Made by a program: the position numbers and the translations under genes. This document shows, one piece after another, positions 11,574 through 28,404 of a stretch of DNA of 53,702 bases (its first letter is position 1; each line of letters begins with the position of its first letter). The notes beneath the pieces are model-generated. The model did not search any database. It was not told the origin of the DNA and saw only the letters and a list, made by a program, of their open reading frames with translations. The DNA lies in contig CANHTA010000004.1 in NCBI GenBank assembly GCA_947463135.1, positions 1 to 53,702 on the forward strand, given 5' to 3'. The DNA is from Gemmatimonadota bacterium (lineage in GTDB: Bacteria > Gemmatimonadota > Gemmatimonadetes > Gemmatimonadales > Gemmatimonadaceae).

Positions 11574-14075
11574 ATGCTGACTCCGCCAACTCCCCGGATG
11601 TTCTGGCGTGTCGCCGCGCGCGCGCTACTGGCCGTGCTTGCCGTGACGGGTACCGGCTGCAGCAGCCGCTTCTTTCAGCTGACCCCCGGCGCCGAACGCG
11701 GAGAGCGGGTGTCACGCGTGGGCGTCCCCTCGCAAACGCCTGCCGCTGGGCCGGTGGCGCTCCCGGCGCCGGGAACCCCGGCGCTGGTGGATACCATCCT
11801 GCCCGAACCGGACCCTGCGCCGTCGGATTCCGCCGGGGTGGCGCGGTTGCGCACGCTCATACAGCTGTGGCACCTCGTGTCCCTGTATCACCCCGCTGTG
11901 ATTGAACGCGGCGCTCCGTGGGATTCGGCCTTTGTCCGCGCGGCCACCATGGTCCGTACGGCGTCGGATCCGACGCAGTTGGCGTCCGTGTATCGTCGGT
12001 TGCTGTTCGTGCTGCAGGATCCGCTCACGCGCGTGGAGTTGGACGCGGCAACACGGCCCACCGGTGTGGCGTCCGAGTATCGGTTGAGTAGCGAGCGTAC
12101 CCGTGACAGTGTGCTGCTGGTGCGCCTCCCACTTGGGGCCGACCAGCGCGCACTCTGGACGGACAGTGCCGCGGCCGCTGTACAGCAGCAGTTGGCCAGC
12201 GCGCCCTCCCGTGTCATCCTCGATTTGCGTGGATCGGGCGTTGTCGCCGTGGCGGAGGCCGATGCCATGGCCGCGCTGGTTGATCGATTCGCCAACGCTG
12301 CCGCAGTTGCCACGCTGTTGAGTCACACGGTCACGTCAGGCAGTGCGGTGCGCACCCGCCGTGTCGGAGGCGCGCGCTCTCGCGATGGACAGTGGCACCC
12401 CGACGACGCCTGGATGGTGCGTAGTGACCCGTCGCTCTTTCCCCGTGCGTCATCCCCCAAGCAGGTGATGGTGCTGGCCAACGGTGCCACGCTGTTTCCG
12501 CGCGCGGTGCTGGCACTGGTGGCGAATCACCGGGCAACGTTACTGGCGGAAGAGGGGGTGGAGGAAACGCCGCTGGTGCCGAGTGTGGTGCTGCCGATTG
12601 CTGAGGGCGTGAGGGTACGCATTCGCACCGGTGAGTTGGTCCACGCGAACGGCGCGGTTGGACTGACGGCGGATACGGTGCTGCCACGCGCCGCGCCGCC
12701 CTTGGATACGGCGCCGGTGTTACACACCGCCCTCTCGTTGCTACGCACCAACCGCACGGTCCGCGCCACGCAGACGCCAACGCCGCGGGCCCCGGCGCTG
12801 CTGCCGCGCTACTACGATGCCGATCCGTATCCCTTTATGGGTGCCAGACTGCTGGCGGCGGCGCGGTTGTGGAGCGCGATTCGGGTGCGCCATGTGCATC
12901 GTGATTTCTACGATGAAGATATGGATGCCCTCATGGAGCGTACCATTCCGCAGCTTGAGGCCGCGCGGAGTGCGTCGGAGTACGCGGCGGCGCTGCTGCC
13001 GTTGGTGTCAGCGCTCAATGACGCACCATCGTCGTTACGGGGAGCATCGGCGGATACGGTGCGCGGCATGGCCGCCACGCCATTCCGTGTGCGGTACGTG
13101 GAGCATCGCGCCGTGATTACCGAGGTGGTGCGGGACTCGCTGAGTAGCGCCCTTGGGATTGAGATTGGCATGGAGGTCACGGCGGCGGATGGCTTTCCGA
13201 TGCCAGCGTGGATTCAGGACCATCGGTTGGCGGTGTCGGCCCCCAATGAGTGGACGCGCCTGGCTGCGCTCATGCCACTGGTGTCGCGCGGGCCCAGCGG
13301 CGGCGCGCTCTTCCGGTTGCGCGATCTGGCGAATCGCGAGCGTCAGCTGAACATTCCGCGCCGAGCCGACTATCTGGTAACGAGCGTGATGAGCGAACGC
13401 CCCAACAGCAGCGCGGTGCGCATGCTCCCCGGCGACATCGCGTACTTCGATGTGGAACGCATCCCGCCCGATTCCATGGCTCCTATGCTGGCGCGTTCGC
13501 GCGGTGCCCGTGCGTGGATGGTGGATCTACGCGGCACCCTGCATGGCGATCGCGCCGACGCGCTTCTTGCGGCTGTTAGGTCGGTGCCGGAGGCTGTGGT
13601 GGCGCGAGAGGTTCGACGCTATGAACGCGAGCCCTGCACGCCACTCACCATTCGTGAAGCGCGCGTGCAGTGCGCGATCACCCGCGAAACCGGTGCCCGG
13701 GTGAGTCGCGGTGATACAGCAGGTCACTACACTGGCTACGTGGTGGCGCTGATTGATGAGCGCACGGCCGGCCAGATGGAACGGCTGGCGATGGCCCTTG
13801 ATGCGGTCACCCGCGTCACGTTTATCGGTACCTCGAGTGCGGGCGCACCGGGCGAGGTGATGGAGATGGCCTTGCCGGGATCGCTCACGGTGGCGCTGCC
13901 TGTTGTTGAGCTGCGCCGATCGGATGACGGGCAGCTGCAGCGCGTGGGGATCACGCCCAGTGTGGAGGTGCCGCTGACGGTGCGCGGTGTGCGCAGCGGC
14001 TTCGACGACGTGATTGAACGGGCACAGCAGTGGGTGGTGCAGCAGCTGGAACCGCCCGCCCGTCGTCGCCGATAA
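11574..14075 (+). CDS. Lipoprotein with two degenerate S41-protease-like halves
   Basis: 833 aa from the ATG at 11574. A lipobox (VTGTGC) ends a hydrophobic signal, so it should be membrane-anchored. Two consecutive copies of an S41-type architecture are visible. Each begins with a helical segment (LIQLWHLVSLYHPAV near residue 95; AARLWSAIRVRHVHRDFYDED near residue 430) and ends with a strand-rich core. The second copy has a PDZ-like part (SSALGIEIGMEVTAADG) and a GTSSAGAPGEV loop as in S41 peptidases. The position of the family's catalytic Ser reads DERTAGQMERL, without Ser, and the first half has ANGATLFPRAV. It may be a non-catalytic scaffold or binding protein. hrpB starts 13 bp downstream. 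Confidence 0.7.
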   Translation: MLTPPTPRMFWRVAARALLAVLAVTGTGCSSRFFQLTPGAERGERVSRVGVPSQTPAAGPVALPAPGTPALVDTILPEPDPAPSDSAGVARLRTLIQLWHLVSLYHPAVIERGAPWDSAFVRAATMVRTASDPTQLASVYRRLLFVLQDPLTRVELDAATRPTGVASEYRLSSERTRDSVLLVRLPLGADQRALWTDSAAAAVQQQLASAPSRVILDLRGSGVVAVAEADAMAALVDRFANAAAVATLLSHTVTSGSAVRTRRVGGARSRDGQWHPDDAWMVRSDPSLFPRASSPKQVMVLANGATLFPRAVLALVANHRATLLAEEGVEETPLVPSVVLPIAEGVRVRIRTGELVHANGAVGLTADTVLPRAAPPLDTAPVLHTALSLLRTNRTVRATQTPTPRAPALLPRYYDADPYPFMGARLLAAARLWSAIRVRHVHRDFYDEDMDALMERTIPQLEAARSASEYAAALLPLVSALNDAPSSLRGASADTVRGMAATPFRVRYVEHRAVITEVVRDSLSSALGIEIGMEVTAADGFPMPAWIQDHRLAVSAPNEWTRLAALMPLVSRGPSGGALFRLRDLANRERQLNIPRRADYLVTSVMSERPNSSAVRMLPGDIAYFDVERIPPDSMAPMLARSRGARAWMVDLRGTLHGDRADALLAAVRSVPEAVVAREVRRYEREPCTPLTIREARVQCAITRETGARVSRGDTAGHYTGYVVALIDERTAGQMERLAMALDAVTRVTFIGTSSAGAPGEVMEMALPGSLTVALPVVELRRSDDGQLQRVGITPSVEVPLTVRGVRSGFDDVIERAQQWVVQQLEPPARRRR

Positions 14076-14088
14076 TTGGTGCGCTAAC

Positions 14089-16647
14089 GTGACGGCGCGC
14101 GCGGCAACTGCGCTCCCCATTGATGAGATCGTGCCGTCGCTGCGCGCCGCGCTGGACGCGCGCACGGTGGCGGTACTCGAGGCGCCGCCGGGTGCCGGCA
14201 AAACCACGCGCGTGCCACTCGCGCTTGTGGATGAACCGTGGCTGGCGGGCGCCAAGCTGGTGATGCTGGAACCGCGCCGGCTCGCGGCCCGCGCGGCGGC
14301 GTCGTACATGGCGTCGATGTTGGGTGAGGAGGTGGGGCAGACGGTGGGCTACCGCGTGCGCGGCGAGACGCGCATTTCGAAGCGCACACGCATTGAGGTG
14401 GTTACTGAAGGTGTGCTGGCGCGCATGCTGAGCGCCGATGCCGCGCTCGAGGGCATCGGGCTTGTGATCTTCGACGAATTTCACGAGCGGTCGCTGCACG
14501 CCGACCTTGGCTTGGCGCTGGTGCTGGAAACGCAGCGTCATCTGCGCGACGAGCTACGCGTGCTGGTGATGTCGGCTACGCTCGATGGTGTCGCGGTGGC
14601 CGCGCTGCTGGCCGATGAGCGCGGGCCGGCGCCGGTGCTGCGCAGCGAGGGGCGCATGTTCCCTATCGACACCAACTACCGTGCACCGCGTCGCGACGAG
14701 CGCATGGAGGCGACCACCGCGCGCGTGGTTCGTGAAGCACTCGACGCCACCGAGGGCGATGTGCTGGTATTTCTGCCCGGCGCCGGTGAACAGCGGCGCG
14801 TGGCCGAGCGTCTCACGGGCGACACCATGACCGGCGTGCGGGTGCACACGTTGCACGGCAGCATGCCGCTGGCCGAGCAGGATGCCGCGCTGGCGCCGGC
14901 GCGGCCGGGGACGCGCAAAGTGGTGCTGAGCACGAGTGTGGCCGAAACGAGTCTCACCGTCGCCGGCGTGCGCGTGGTGGTGGACTGTGGATTGTCGCGT
15001 GTGCCGCGCTACGATGCATCGGCGGGTCTCACGCGATTGCACACGGTGCGGGTGAGCCGCGCGTCGGCCGATCAGCGTCGTGGTCGCGCGGGGCGCACGG
15101 CGCCGGGTGTGAGCTACCGGTTGTGGGATCAGCACGAGGATCATGCGTTGCTGCCCAGCACGCGCCCGGTAATTGTGGACGCGGATTTGTCGTCGTTGGC
15201 GCTGGAGCTGGCCGACGCCGGCATCAGTGATCCGACCACGCTGCGTTGGCTCGACGTACCACGGGCGGGGCCGTTCGCGCAGGCGCGCGGGCTGTTAGCG
15301 CAGCTTGGTGCACTCGATGCAGCCGGGCGCATTACGCCGCACGGACGTCGCATGGCGGCGTTGCCGCTGCAGCCGCGATTGGCGCACTTGGCGATCACGG
15401 CCGCTGAACGTGGCGCCTTGCCGCTTGGTGCGGCGATCGCGGCGTTGCTGGAGGAGCGCGACATCGTGCGCTACGATGGTCTGCCGCCGCAGTCGGACCT
15501 GCGGCTGCGTACGGAGCTGTTGCGGCGCGATGGTGCGATGGGCGCCGCGGGGGTGGCGGTGGATCGCGATGGTGTGCGTCGCGTGCGTCAAACAGCCGAT
15601 GATCTGGCGCGCCGCACCGCCGGCGGGGGATTGGGTGGTGCGCCGTCGCGCGCCTCGTGGGACGATGCCGATACGGGGTCGCTGCTGGCGTTGGCGTATC
15701 CCGATCGGGTAGCGCAACGTCGCAGCGGCGCCGAGCCGCGGTATTTGTTACGCAATGGCAGCGGGGCGGTGCTGGCGAAGCACGATGCGCTGCACGATGC
15801 GCCGTATCTGGCGATTGCGGATCTGGAGGGCACGTCACCCGAATCGCGCATCGTGCGGGCGGCGCCGATCACGCTCGAGGAGCTGCGCGAGGATTTCGGT
15901 GAGCAGTTCGAGCGGGTGCAGCTGGTGGAGTGGGATGAACGCACCAAGGCCATCCGCGCGCGCAAGCGTACGATGCTGGGTGCGATGGTGATTGAGGATG
16001 TGGTGTGGACCGACGCCGATCCGGCGGTGGTGCTGCAGGCGGTTGTCGGTGCCATCCGCGCACAGCTGGCCCGCAGCGGTATCGAGGCGTTGCCGTTCTC
16101 ACCGTCGGCGTCGCGACTGCGCGAGCGGATGGCGTTTGTGCACGCGCACGACGCGAGCTGGCCTGATGTGTCGGTGGCCGCCTTGTCGGCGTCGCTCGAG
16201 GAATGGGCGGGACCGTATCTCGACGGCGTGCGTACTTGGGGGCAGCTGGCATCGGTGGATTGGCACGACGCACTGCAGTCGCTGATGCCGTGGGCGCAGC
16301 GGTCGGCGTTGGAACGACTGGCGCCTACGCATTTGGAAGTGCCGAGTGGATCGCGGATTGCGCTGGACTACAGTGAGCCAACGGCGCCGGTGTTGGCGGT
16401 GAAGCTGCAGGAAGTGTTCGGGTGGACGAGCACGCCGATGCTGATGGACGGCCGGGTGTCGCTCACGCTGCAGCTGCTGTCGCCCGCACAGCGGCCGGTG
16501 CAGGTGACGCGCGATCTCGCGGGGTTCTGGCGCAGCTCGTACTTCGAGGTGCGGAAGGAATTGCGAGGGCGGTACCCACGGCACCCGTGGCCGGAGGATC
16601 CGCTCACGGCGGAGGCGACGCGACGGGCGAAGCCGCGGGGGACGTGA
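14089..16647 (+). CDS. hrpB: ATP-dependent helicase HrpB
   Basis: 852 aa from a GTG at 14089, just after the upstream stop. In-frame codons before it lie inside the preceding gene. It is a DEAH-family helicase with Walker A PPGAGKTT (residues 33-40), Walker B IFDEFHERS, motif III VMSATLDG, motif V STSVAETSLTVAGV and motif VI QRRGRAGRTAPG. The helicase-associated and HrpB-specific C-terminal regions follow, ending near HPWPEDPLTAEATRRAKPRG, a typical HrpB tail. Length matches the family. HrpB proteins are cytoplasmic RNA-type helicases of poorly defined role. The stop codon is followed almost at once by the 153-bp tandem array. Confidence 0.95.
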   Translation: MTARAATALPIDEIVPSLRAALDARTVAVLEAPPGAGKTTRVPLALVDEPWLAGAKLVMLEPRRLAARAAASYMASMLGEEVGQTVGYRVRGETRISKRTRIEVVTEGVLARMLSADAALEGIGLVIFDEFHERSLHADLGLALVLETQRHLRDELRVLVMSATLDGVAVAALLADERGPAPVLRSEGRMFPIDTNYRAPRRDERMEATTARVVREALDATEGDVLVFLPGAGEQRRVAERLTGDTMTGVRVHTLHGSMPLAEQDAALAPARPGTRKVVLSTSVAETSLTVAGVRVVVDCGLSRVPRYDASAGLTRLHTVRVSRASADQRRGRAGRTAPGVSYRLWDQHEDHALLPSTRPVIVDADLSSLALELADAGISDPTTLRWLDVPRAGPFAQARGLLAQLGALDAAGRITPHGRRMAALPLQPRLAHLAITAAERGALPLGAAIAALLEERDIVRYDGLPPQSDLRLRTELLRRDGAMGAAGVAVDRDGVRRVRQTADDLARRTAGGGLGGAPSRASWDDADTGSLLALAYPDRVAQRRSGAEPRYLLRNGSGAVLAKHDALHDAPYLAIADLEGTSPESRIVRAAPITLEELREDFGEQFERVQLVEWDERTKAIRARKRTMLGAMVIEDVVWTDADPAVVLQAVVGAIRAQLARSGIEALPFSPSASRLRERMAFVHAHDASWPDVSVAALSASLEEWAGPYLDGVRTWGQLASVDWHDALQSLMPWAQRSALERLAPTHLEVPSGSRIALDYSEPTAPVLAVKLQEVFGWTSTPMLMDGRVSLTLQLLSPAQRPVQVTRDLAGFWRSSYFEVRKELRGRYPRHPWPEDPLTAEATRRAKPRGT

Positions 16648-16654
16648 ACAACGA

Positions 16655-17260
16655 ACAGCTTTGCCGCGAATTCGCGCGGATGTTCGCGGATGAACAGCAA
16701 CAATTGAATTGGACGTTGCGTGCACGGAGCCGTCGTCGTGACACGGGTGATCCGTGTAGTGATTCGCGCTGATCCGCGGTCACGCGGTTGTTTCAAGATT
16801 TCCACAAACCGCTTGACCACGAATTGGCACGAATGCCCGCGGATGAACAGCAACAAGTTTATTGGTCGTGGCGTGCACGGAGCCGTCGTTGTGCCACGGG
16901 TGATCCGTGTAGTTGTCTGCGTAGATCCGCGGTCATGCGGTTGTTTCAAGATTTACACAAACCGCTTCACCGCGGATCAGCACGAATGTTCGCGGATGAA
17001 CAGCAACAATTAAATTGGTCGTCGCGTGTACGGAGCCGTCGTTGTGCCACGGGTGATCCGTGTAGTTGTCTGTGTAGATCCGCGGTCATGCGGTTGTTTC
17101 AAGATTTCCGCAAACCGCTTCACCGCGGATCAGCACGAATGTTCGCGGATGAACAGCAACAATTGAATTGGTCGTCGCGTGTACGGAGCCGTCGTCGTTC
17201 CACGAATAATCCGTGTAGTAATTCGCGCTAATTCGCGGTTACGCGGTTTGGCGATCGCAG
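16655..17260. repeat. Tandem array of 153-bp units with hairpin arms
   Basis: The core GCGGATGAACAGCAACAA recurs at 16686, 16839, 16992 and 17145, exactly 153 bp apart. There are three full units, a 5' partial (right arm only) and a 3' partial that stops after the left arm. Units 2 and 3 differ at about 8 of 153 positions; outer units 1 and 4 share a variant (ATTCGCGCT) absent from the inner ones. Each inner unit has an inverted repeat, GATCCGCGGT...GCGGTT against AACCGC...ACCGCGGATC, around a loop of about 18 nt, plus a small CACGG/CCGTG hairpin. The DNA is visibly less GC-rich than its surroundings. The frame stays open only because 153 is divisible by 3; no protein function is claimed. This repeat fills the 709-bp gap between hrpB and the GxxExxY gene. 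Confidence 0.9.
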
Positions 17261-17356
17261 CCTAATCGGCGTTCGAATGAGAGTGGTGGCAACGTATCGG
17301 TGGGTACGTCCGCCAATGACCGTGACAGCTTGTGTCCACCCGAACCAGGAGCAAGC

Positions 17357-17827
17357 ATGAGCGAGGCCGATGCTGAACAGAAGCGGCTACTGCACCAGGA
17401 ACTCAGCAGCCAGATCATCAGTGCGTTCTACCAAGTGTACAACACCATGGTCCGCGGACTACTCGAAGGGTGCTATCAGAACGCCCTCTACGTCGAGCTG
17501 CAGGAGCGCGGCATCCCAGTCGAGCGCGAAGTGCCATTCGGCGTCCGCTACAAAGAGCATATCGTCGGTCAGTATCGCGTGGACCTGCTCGTCGATCGCA
17601 AAGTGATCGTTGAATGCAAGACCGCCCACACCTTACACTCGCAGCATGAAGCCCAGATGCTGCACTACCTCAAAGCTACGAACACCGAGCTTGGCCTGCT
17701 GATGTACTTCGGGTCAAAGCCCCTGTTCCGGCGGTTTGTGCACACCAGCGGATCGGCGGCTTCCTTGGCCAGTGGTGAAACGGAAGCCGCCGAGGCGGAA
17801 GACGCTACGCCAACGCCCCCGGAATGA
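17357..17827 (+). CDS. GxxExxY-family protein, PD-(D/E)XK nuclease-like
   Basis: 156 aa from the ATG at 17357, which has AGGAG 5 nt upstream; an in-frame start at 17300 lacks this. The family-naming motif is GLLEGCY (G34, E37, Y40). It continues with QNALYVELQERGIPVEREVP, then YRVDLLVDRKVIVECKT, where D76, E86 and K88 form a D-x9-ExK pattern typical of the PD-(D/E)XK nuclease fold, and HEAQMLHYLKAT and GLLMYFGSKP follow. The catalytic-type residues are seen; the nuclease reaction is inferred, since the family lacks a well-known function. An extra C-terminal tail rich in Ala/Glu/Thr (about 25 residues) is unusual. It directly follows the tandem array and overlaps the convergent aminotransferase gene by 23 bp. 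Confidence 0.88.
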   Translation: MSEADAEQKRLLHQELSSQIISAFYQVYNTMVRGLLEGCYQNALYVELQERGIPVEREVPFGVRYKEHIVGQYRVDLLVDRKVIVECKTAHTLHSQHEAQMLHYLKATNTELGLLMYFGSKPLFRRFVHTSGSAASLASGETEAAEAEDATPTPPE

Positions 17828-18977
17828 GCCGCACAAATTCCTTCATCTCGTCTGGTGTCCCGATGCTGATGCGGCACCAGTCGGTGTACGGCTGAAAGGC
17901 GCGGCCCACGCGGAAGCCGCCGGCCAGGAAATGCTTCTGCAGCTGCTCAACCGGCCGACCCGCGTGGAAGAACACGAAGTTCGTCTGCGACGGCGCCACG
18001 CGGCGGCCGGCTTTGGTGAGCGCGGCGGTGAGCATCGCGCGTCCCTCGCGGTTCTTGGCCTTCACAAACTCCTGATACTCCGTGTCCTGCACGGAGGCCA
18101 GCGCGGCACGCATCCCGAACGTGTTCGGGTTGCCCGTGGAGAACTTCGCCATCTTCTTGATCACATCGGGATGCGCGATGGCGAAACCGATGCGCAGGCC
18201 GGCGAGGGCATGAATCTTGGACGCGGTGCGGGACACGATGATGTTGTGGCCGGCCGTGACCAGGTCCGTCATCGACCGATAGCTCGGGTCGTCAACGAAA
18301 TCGTGATAGGCTTCGTCCACCACCACGAGACAGCGTTTGGCGGTGCTGATGACAAAGTCCCGCATGGCAGACTGCTGATCAAGCACGGCCGTGGGGTTAT
18401 TCGGGTTGCACACAAACACGAGCTTCGTGTTCGCTCCGATCTTCGCGTCCATCGCGGCGAAATCGTGATGCAGCGTGTCGGTGAGTGGCACCTTGTGCAC
18501 CGTCATCCCCATGGACGCGGTGTAATCCGGGAGCTGCTCGAAGGTGGGCCACGGCAGCACCATCTCGCCCCCCTGCATCCCCGTGGCCAGCGCGGCCAGC
18601 GAGAGCACTTCACTGGAGCCTTGGGTGACCAACACCTGCTCGGGCCTCACGCCCACGTGCGTGGCGTAGGCCCCGGTGAGCTCCCGCATGGCGGGCGGAT
18701 CGTAGTGCGGATGCTCTCCCCACGCGTTCATGATCGCGTCTTTGGCCTTGGGGGACATCCCGAACGGATTCTCGTTAAAACACAACCGGATGGGACCGGC
18801 GGCTCGGCGCTGGGTGGTGATATCGCGCGCGAGTTGTGCCAGCACCTCGCTATACGACGCGCCACCCAACACCCGCGCGGCATCGAGGGCGGGGAGCAGT
18901 CCGGGGAGCGCCACCGTGGCGCCCACGCCGATACCGCTGTTGATCAACCATTGACGTCGGGACACGCTGTCAGACAT
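17805..18977 (-). CDS. Tat-exported HisC-like PLP aminotransferase
   Basis: 390 aa from the ATG at 18977, giving a twin-arginine signal (SRRQWLINSG followed by an Ala/Gly/Leu stretch). The mature part is a class I/II, histidinol-phosphate-aminotransferase-like enzyme: CFNENPFGMSPKA, the CNPNNPTAV segment that contacts PLP, VVDEAYHDFVDD, and SRTASKIHALAGLRIGF with the Schiff-base Lys. Tat transport fits an enzyme exported folded with its cofactor. No other his gene is near, so a role in histidine synthesis is unlikely; a periplasmic amino-acid transaminase is a better guess. Its 3' end overlaps the GxxExxY gene, and it is divergent from the membrane-protein gene at 19073. Confidence 0.88.
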   Translation of the reverse strand: MSDSVSRRQWLINSGIGVGATVALPGLLPALDAARVLGGASYSEVLAQLARDITTQRRAAGPIRLCFNENPFGMSPKAKDAIMNAWGEHPHYDPPAMRELTGAYATHVGVRPEQVLVTQGSSEVLSLAALATGMQGGEMVLPWPTFEQLPDYTASMGMTVHKVPLTDTLHHDFAAMDAKIGANTKLVFVCNPNNPTAVLDQQSAMRDFVISTAKRCLVVVDEAYHDFVDDPSYRSMTDLVTAGHNIIVSRTASKIHALAGLRIGFAIAHPDVIKKMAKFSTGNPNTFGMRAALASVQDTEYQEFVKAKNREGRAMLTAALTKAGRRVAPSQTNFVFFHAGRPVEQLQKHFLAGGFRVGRAFQPYTDWCRISIGTPDEMKEFVRLIPGALA

Positions 18978-19060
18978 GGGAGGCTCGGCGGGAGCGGGAG
19001 AGTGGGGGCGGCGTACCGTGGTGCATGGCGTGCTGGGTACGAGTACCATACGGTCTTCGC

Positions 19061-23795: not shown

Positions 23796-24404
23796 ATGAG
23801 TAAAGGAGAGAAGAAACGTCGTCGTGCGCTTGATGCGTACGCCACACTGCAGCGTGCCGCCTCAATGGCTGCGGTGCACGTTGAGCAGGCGGTGCATCCC
23901 TTCGGGCTGTCGGCGTCGCAGTTTGGCGTGCTGGAAACGCTGGAGACGCGTGGGCCCGCGCATCAGCAGGAGCTGGCTGTGGCGCTGGGACGCAGTAAAG
24001 CGCAGATGACGGCGATTATCGATGCCCTTGAGGCTCGCGGTGCCGTGCGCCGTGAGCGGCATGCTACCGACCGACGGTTCATCACGGTGTTTCTCACCGA
24101 TGCGGGGCGTGAGCTGTTGGTTCAGACGGCGCCGGCACGCAGTGATGCGATTGTTGACATCATGCGCGAACTGAGCGGCGACCAGCGCGTGCGCTTGGCA
24201 CGGCTCTGTCGGCGCCTGCTGCGTGTGCTGGATCCGGATCAGTCCAAAGAACCGGACGATGACACGGCTGATGACGTGCATGATGACACGGCCGATGACG
24301 CGCCGGATGACACGTTGGATGACCGTCCGGACGAACCGGACGCCCGTTCCCACAACGCGCCGGACACGCCGGCGGTTGCGACACCACTTTCTTCTCTCTC
24401 GTAA
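23796..24404 (+). CDS. MarR-family regulator with Asp-rich repeat tail
   Basis: 202 aa. Residues about 10-150 are a winged-helix MarR domain: LSASQFGVLETLETRG, the recognition-helix region QQELAVALGRSKAQMTAIIDALEARG, and the wing ERHATDRRFITVFLTDAG. Unusually, a tail of about 50 residues follows, containing three tandem 8-residue repeats (DDTADDVH, DDTADDAP, DDTLDDRP; DNA 24258-24329). The tail is strongly acidic, and normal MarR proteins end near residue 150. The aminotransferase gene begins 3 bp after its stop, so the regulator probably controls that operon. The inducer is unknown. Confidence 0.9.
   Translation: MSKGEKKRRRALDAYATLQRAASMAAVHVEQAVHPFGLSASQFGVLETLETRGPAHQQELAVALGRSKAQMTAIIDALEARGAVRRERHATDRRFITVFLTDAGRELLVQTAPARSDAIVDIMRELSGDQRVRLARLCRRLLRVLDPDQSKEPDDDTADDVHDDTADDAPDDTLDDRPDEPDARSHNAPDTPAVATPLSSLS
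24258..24329 (+). repeat. Three 24-bp in-frame repeats in MarR tail
   Basis: Units at 24258-24281, 24282-24305 and 24306-24329 each begin GATGACACG and encode DDT-x-DD-xx. They are in frame with the MarR gene and have the look of a slippage-prone minisatellite. Confidence 0.85.
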
Positions 24405-28248: not shown

Positions 28249-28257
28249 GTTGTTCCC

Positions 28258-28404
28258 TGCCAACGGCTTTACTGCCAACGGCTTTACTGCCAACAGCTTA
28301 GGAGGCGGGGAGTTGGGTATCAGGGAGGAGGAAGCAGCGACGACGCGCGGTGTCCCTGCCTCCTCCTTCCTGACACCCTCCCCCCTGCCTCCTAAGCTGT
28401 TGGC
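28258..28404. repeat. Triple 15-bp repeat leading into a 48-bp-arm inverted repeat
   Basis: TGCCAACGGCTTTAC occurs at 28258 and 28273, and a third, slightly changed copy starts at 28288. The third copy opens the left arm (28289-28336), which pairs with the right arm (28357-28404): the outer 18 bp are perfect and the inner 30 match at 23 positions, some others being G-T. The loop is 20 nt. The left arm's inner part is almost pure purine. It fills the gap between the DUF2461 gene and the next membrane-protein gene, and could act as a terminator or be a non-autonomous palindromic repeat. Confidence 0.85.

Follow-up and report, generated by a model that had tools for sequence, protein, structure and literature searches.

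In a contig of a Gemmatimonadaceae bacterium, a tandem array stands beside the gene for a small GxxExxY protein, which raises the question of whether the two belong together or are neighbours by chance. Below, the window means the whole stretch of DNA that was analysed, 53,702 nucleotides long. The features at issue are the following:

14014..16647, plus strand: gene of an HrpB-type helicase (PF08482, HrpB_C), the upstream neighbour; its stop is the left edge of the gap
16664..17219, no strand assigned: tandem array, 3.6 units of 153 bp (TRF, spacing of an 18-mer, inverted matches)
16966..17092, no strand assigned: single hairpin unit with arms ACCGCGGATCAGCACGAAT... and ...GATCCGCGGT (direct reading)
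17357..17827, plus strand: gene of the GxxExxY protein, 156 aa, a predicted PD-(D/E)XK nuclease of the T-word clade (profiles, residues)
17805..19049, minus strand: gene of an aminotransferase (PF00155), the converging downstream neighbour and right edge of the gap

TRF reported one strong array in the window (16664-17219, period 153, 89% matches, indels 0). The first-pass annotation had described four copies of an 18-mer exactly 153 bp apart, and these are indeed present (GCGGATGAACAGCAACAA at 16686, 16839, 16992 and 17145). Its estimate of about 95% identity between inner units was slightly high: in a register starting at 16678, units 2 and 3 are 93% identical, unit 1 matches them at 85-86%, and the fourth stretch, which overruns the array end, at 65-71%. 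It had also placed the array start within about 10 bp of the hrpB stop, which holds for related letters that begin near 16655 but not for the TRF start, 17 bp past 16647, and the array end about 100 bp ahead of the gene, where the distance to the ATG at 17357 is in fact 138 bp. An AGGAG (17347-17351) lies ahead of this ATG, and the last codons of the gene overlap the end of the converging aminotransferase gene.

Each 153-bp unit contains a linker and an imperfect palindrome made of CGCGGAT/CACGAAT words, with about three 7-nt words in each arm. Read directly, arm 1 is CGCGGAT-CAG-CACGAAT-GTT-CGCGGAT and the inverted arm 2 begins CGCGGATCTACACAGACAACTACACGGAT; a genome search placed inverted matches inside the array at 16762-16824 and 16925-16987. 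Single-strand folding of the units is weak (z of -1.9 in the first register, then -1.7 for the unit at 16966..17092, and -1.4, -0.2 and -0.9), and for this reason we regard the window's own palindromes as imperfect; the array is perhaps an ageing, degenerate form of the hairpin structure described below. The repeats form several units on the 5' side of the gene, and no 3' arm was seen there. Rfam gave zero family matches in 15500-19000 at E up to 1. Elsewhere in the window, TRF found two short tandem repeats, one of 12/24 bp at 24258-24323 (GATGACACGCCT-like) and one of 15 bp at 28257-28299 (CTGCCAACGGCTTTA).

The protein is a member of TIGR04256 (E 2.1e-37, 128 bits, against a curated cut-off of 35) and matches PF13366 PDDEXK_3 (E 6.7e-37). 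These were the only profiles that matched it at E 0.001; the HUH Y1 transposase profile (TnpA_REP) was absent. GLLEGCY from residue 34 and D76, E86 and K88 are where the first-pass annotation had seen them, and Q100xxxY104 can be added. The D and E-x-K residues, together with the fold modelled for a same-clade relative (L058, pLDDT 95), indicate that the protein is a member of the PD-(D/E)XK nuclease superfamily. A Foldseek search with this model returned 4ic1 (titled SSO0001) as the best match, followed by AdnAB, lambda exonuclease and Hjc; the nearest folds were mostly DNA nucleases, and tRNA-splicing endonucleases stood low in the same list. A sequence search of the PDB matched 4ic1 alone, weakly (E 0.11), and Cas4 profile matches were weak as well. 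The predicted enzyme shares the fold and the D, E-x-K and QxxxY residues with Cas4 and RecB-family nucleases, from which it differs by a core of about 110 residues that carries the GxxExxY motif. The 80 best of 582 confirmed relatives come from Planctomycetes, Chloroflexi, Cyanobacteria, Acidobacteria, Bacteroidetes, Proteobacteria, Verrucomicrobia, methanogenic archaea and others.

Do such repeats recur beside other GxxExxY genes? Two sets of loci bear on this: a relatives set of 61 loci, made of 60 of about 100 GxxExxY places in 61 related genomes plus the window, and a named-genome set, made of the best 80 of the 582 relatives, which all belong to the canonical clade described below because protein similarity was the sole basis of their choice. 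Inverted self-matches were counted from at least 36 bits. In the named set, an inverted repeat lay within 250 bp on the 5' side in 51/80 loci and on the 3' side in 50/80, against 0-6 per bin farther out and 0/80 inside the gene. In the relatives set, the first 250 bp held inverted self-matches 3' of the gene in 40/61 loci and 5' of it in 20/61, and bins beyond 750 bp did so in 0-4 of 55-60. Clustered words stood at most 300 bp from the gene in 74/80 loci versus 12/161 offset controls, in 25/30 loci of a 30-locus set versus 0/24, and in 31/61 loci of the relatives set versus 1/161.

Some loci argue against reading gene and repeats as one element: an inverted repeat lay within 500 bp in 55/80 loci of the named set and by threshold there was none in 25/80, and 30/61 loci of the relatives set had no word call. 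Within the window's own orthologue group, a nearby inverted repeat passed the threshold at three of seven genes only (the window, L055 and L057), and the T word was called at six of the seven. All together, the proximity of array and gene in the window is not a matter of chance, and the linkage extends widely beyond it.

The usual anatomy is an arm of about three words (CACAGAG CACAGAG CACAGAG), an ORF of about 130 aa and a reverse-complement arm, which reads ACCACAGAGACACAGAGACACAGAG, ORF, CTCTGTGTCTCTGTGTCTCTGTGGT. In the relatives set, 17/47 GxxExxY elements had a terminal tag, AACNG[CA], at both ends. Counting k-mers over 31 loci yielded GC-rich words for the most part. In one genome (L067, G012), tandem CACGGAGGG-type words make up an inverted repeat of 320 bp and 90% identity that flanks the GxxExxY gene.

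The words differ with the protein. Beside genes of the canonical clade (VHR...GPGLLES, YLRL) they end in G (CACAGAG, CACGGAG, CGCGAAG); beside genes of a second clade (VYN or VSN...GxGF, YLxA), to which the window protein belongs, they end in T (CACGGAT, CACAGAT, CGCGAAT), less often in A or C. The word pattern, a clustered CRCNRA plus one base, was devised after the first sets had been viewed and is blind to other shapes (for example at L051, L236, L240 and L241), which entered as no-calls. With it, 173/216 loci were callable (G 122, T 41, A 8, C 2) and 43/216 gave no call; these loci are not independent of one another, and four genes were counted in two sets before near-identical proteins were collapsed into 164 called groups (G 116, T 38, A 8, C 2), of which none was mixed. 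The same behaviour was seen in 45 further Pseudomonadota proteins, two of which also belong to the named set.

The same split holds inside single genomes. A second-clade profile was run against the genomes that carry 50 of the 80 named loci and gave 30 loci; six of these encoded GPG proteins (L247 among them) and were left out, leaving 24 genomes. In all 19 callable pairs (of 24), the word next to the canonical gene ended in G and the one next to the second-clade gene in a different base. On a tree of 169 different proteins, which has few columns and no settled bootstrap, the G/non-G state needs 2 changes against a shuffled mean of 44, and four states need 7. The signal draws its strength from a split that persists across many phyla and inside individual genomes rather than from many switches, and since the switches are few, common descent of gene and arms could give the correlation in cis without any recognition.

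L247 (GPGF, T words) and GxGLLES proteins with G words argue against the P in GPG as the word-setting residue. F or Y after GxG goes with a non-G word in 41/41 callable proteins and other residues with G in 121/128, a count that leaves out four called rows in which the motif pattern failed; the exceptions are six rows of the window's orthologue group and L052. We do not claim a single specificity residue, because many columns divide both clades about equally well.

The first-pass annotation had proposed a repeat/nuclease pair in which the protein acts on the repeats or their transcript, and had named two observations that would speak against it: homologues without repeats, and repeats at many sites unlinked to the gene. 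When the flanks of homologues were scored for palindromes, the linkage was found to recur across phyla, with a word type that tracks the protein clade. The meaningful unit, however, is the imperfect short-word palindrome rather than the 153-bp period; many genes have arms on both sides, and related hairpins are dispersed over many sites unlinked to the gene. Of the two observations named, the second was thus made, and the first was not.

Units of the window type were sought in 30 genomes of the genus with the C106 array of the window's genome as query. Matches to the array part of this query were present in 7/7 genomes with a window-type gene at the hrpB site and in 1/23 without one (G023). 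In that genome, gene and aminotransferase were both not found in the 1.7 kb beside hrpB, which is consistent with a deletion. In G029, a one-contig genome, nine dispersed sites of about 160-530 bp were examined.

Across 299 Pseudomonadota genomes, the three-word G pattern occurred in 25, with the highest count in G233 (79 matches, 2 genes); 20 genomes had the T pattern. Reversed control patterns gave no matches save in G357 (G pattern) and G135 (T pattern), and direct tandem runs rather than hairpins make up part of the T signal (G127, G135) and of the G signal (G357). A GxxExxY gene above cut-off was present in 57 of the 299 genomes, and either word pattern occurred in 23/57 genomes with the gene versus 12/242 without it (Fisher p 7e-11), an association that is partly in cis because some matches flank the gene itself. 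The 12 gene-less genomes argue against the element reading. One of the genomes with no GxxExxY gene detected, G147, holds 12 CACAGAG-type three-word matches. Unlinked T-words were found in 7/16 genomes with a T-clade gene versus 7/41 with other GxxExxY genes (p 0.047), linked matches having been removed by hand (G348, G310); the 16 genomes were assigned roughly, by an A3 score from about 105 upwards, and include G201 and G247, whose loci carry G- and C-type words. The modest tie of unlinked T-words to T-clade genes is suggestive only. At some loci (L260, L266, L285) no more than about 30 bp separate the end of an open frame from the solo element.

Several sites differ in occupancy. Three copies in G233 share about 200 bp at 89-91%, two in G147 share about 250 bp at 84%, and in both cases the flanks are unrelated. 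Since homology extends past the word arms, the unit that moved would be larger than the hairpin. The aligned G233 and G147 copies share ends, and no target-site duplication or exact boundary was recognised in them. In G147 (L355-L357), two copies are elements of about 250 bp with an outer inverted CTGGTTCAA. G014, G026 and G023 lack the C106 array at the corresponding place. As these differences are between species, gain or loss at such sites is inferred. Among 14 gene-less hrpB-aminotransferase gaps, 10 are short spacers and four contain palindromes of other vocabularies (L219, L220, L221 and L222, in G005, G020, G028 and G007), so that the gap resembles a hotspot.

We propose, with a probability of about 0.56, that the GxxExxY gene and the palindromic word repeats form one REPtron-like mobile element whose nuclease would recognise its own repeat. 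This reading rests on the linkage, the bracketing arms, the clade-tracking words and the dispersed solo copies, and further on sites that are occupied in one species but not in a related one and on words enriched in gene-bearing genomes. The small Cas4/RecB-like nuclease would recognise the tandem 7-nt words of the inverted arms, probably as double-stranded or cruciform DNA, and cut or process them; host repair may then copy the element, or gene-free hairpins, into new intergenic sites. If copying is left to host repair, one gene could serve many solo copies in trans, as thought for RAYT/TnpA_REP and REPs. To our knowledge, no lone PD-(D/E)XK nuclease transposes DNA, which argues against the proposal.

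The alternative that survives best, although we consider it unlikely, is passive insertion: either other machinery spreads the hairpins, with the nuclease gene carried along, or palindromes that act as terminators simply accumulate where gene ends converge. The unrelated palindromes in 4/14 gene-less gaps and the words in gene-less genomes would fit this explanation, which however predicts neither words that track the clade across phyla and within genomes nor their enrichment in genomes with the gene.

We give rather little credence to a non-mobile system with a regulatory or chromosome-structuring function, in which a nuclease or cruciform-resolving activity at dispersed hairpins benefits the host. 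The modelled fold resembles the Holliday-junction resolvase Hjc among others, and with one canonical query protein the gene was rare on plasmids (8/72,556 records) and not found in phages (0/50,697); one viral contig carried a relative. Against such a system stand the patchy gene content in Pseudomonadota and the turnover of sites within the genus.

A further possibility comes from a second family in the same genomes, the IVP four-helix-bundle family (TIGR02436/PF05635), known from 23S rRNA intervening sequences. IVP-family genes occur in 52/61 related genomes, one of them in the window's own (L209, which matches PF05635). At 30 loci (L180-L209) of more than 150 matches, inverted repeats flank this unrelated gene 5' in 17/30 and 3' in 24/30, and their words are likewise in tandem and differ from those above, for example GTGTCAGGTGTCAG or GAGAGTTGAGAGTTG; the terminal tag AACNG[CA] stood at both ends of 0/24 IVP elements. 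By analogy, the GxxExxY arms would pair once transcribed, and the ORF-bearing loop would be removed by RNase III or by the protein, as in the rRNA. We consider this improbable: the window element lies outside any rRNA gene, with no Rfam match and protein genes as neighbours, and G.T and A.C mismatches in GxxExxY arms are about balanced (102:116 and 62:69), an absence of G.T excess that gives no support for an RNA-hairpin target. In IVP arms, A.C mismatches exceed G.T (138:57), hinting at selection on RNA of the strand opposite the gene. We read the IVP elements as a parallel kind, distinct from GxxExxY elements. A known 23S rRNA intervening sequence is a terminal inverted repeat around an IVP/S23p ORF (PMC4990558); a short ORF within a terminal inverted repeat is thus common to both, while the ORF there is PF05635, the window protein matches PF13366 only and lies outside rRNA, and GxxExxY arms carry no sign of RNA selection.

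Type III antitoxin repeats are positioned upstream of the toxin, as the array is directly upstream of the nuclease gene. Such antitoxins are multiple RNA repeats (PMC8860590). That the array is transcribed into RNA repeats which neutralise the nuclease encoded just downstream is nevertheless very improbable, given many homologues whose arms stand on both sides or on the 3' side, dispersed solo copies, nearest folds that are mostly those of DNA nucleases, and arms without an excess of G.T over A.C.

The mobile element that we favour has known counterparts. Rpn nucleases also have the PD-(D/E)XK fold, and we know of no such word repeats beside them; Pfam, moreover, gives the window protein PF13366 only. 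Rpn and YhgA-like transposase_31 proteins have been tied to DNA mobility or phage defence (PMC10327210, PMC5350276). The closest likeness is to REPtrons, in which a TnpA_REP/RAYT gene is tied to high-copy palindromic repeats and protein groups co-evolve with their cognate repeats (PMC8266576). Gene and palindromic repeats are found in both, the GxxExxY family having flanking inverted palindromes plus unlinked copies, and the tandem arrangement resembles that in BIMEs (PMC2817692). The differences are that the REPtron enzyme is an HUH tyrosine transposase and the GxxExxY enzyme a predicted PD-(D/E)XK nuclease, that GxxExxY arms consist of about three tandem 7-nt words, often as one large inverted repeat bracketing the ORF, and that GxxExxY elements occur here in archaea as well as bacteria. 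The element would work like a REPtron but cannot be classed as one, since it lacks the HUH transposase that defines REPtrons.

CACAGAGACACAGAG, CTCTGTGTCTCTGTG and CACGGAGACACGGAG were not found in the open-access literature, nor was PDDEXK_3; the GxxExxY family is named there in two papers, just in passing, and nothing in titles and abstract starts was recognised as a GxxExxY/repeat system. More tentatively, there may be a so far unnoticed class of minimal mobile elements across bacteria and archaea in which a Cas4/RecB-like nuclease of about 110 residues is the sole protein, a code links protein clade to a 7-nt word repeated in the inverted arms, and non-autonomous hairpins spread in trans; the IVP family would form a parallel class with its own vocabulary, and rRNA intervening sequences a special case. 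Should the nuclease prove to read the repeat of its own words, the family would gain a substrate and a widespread class of intergenic hairpins would be explained; the elements would then offer a natural set of protein-DNA specificities, directly testable in vitro.
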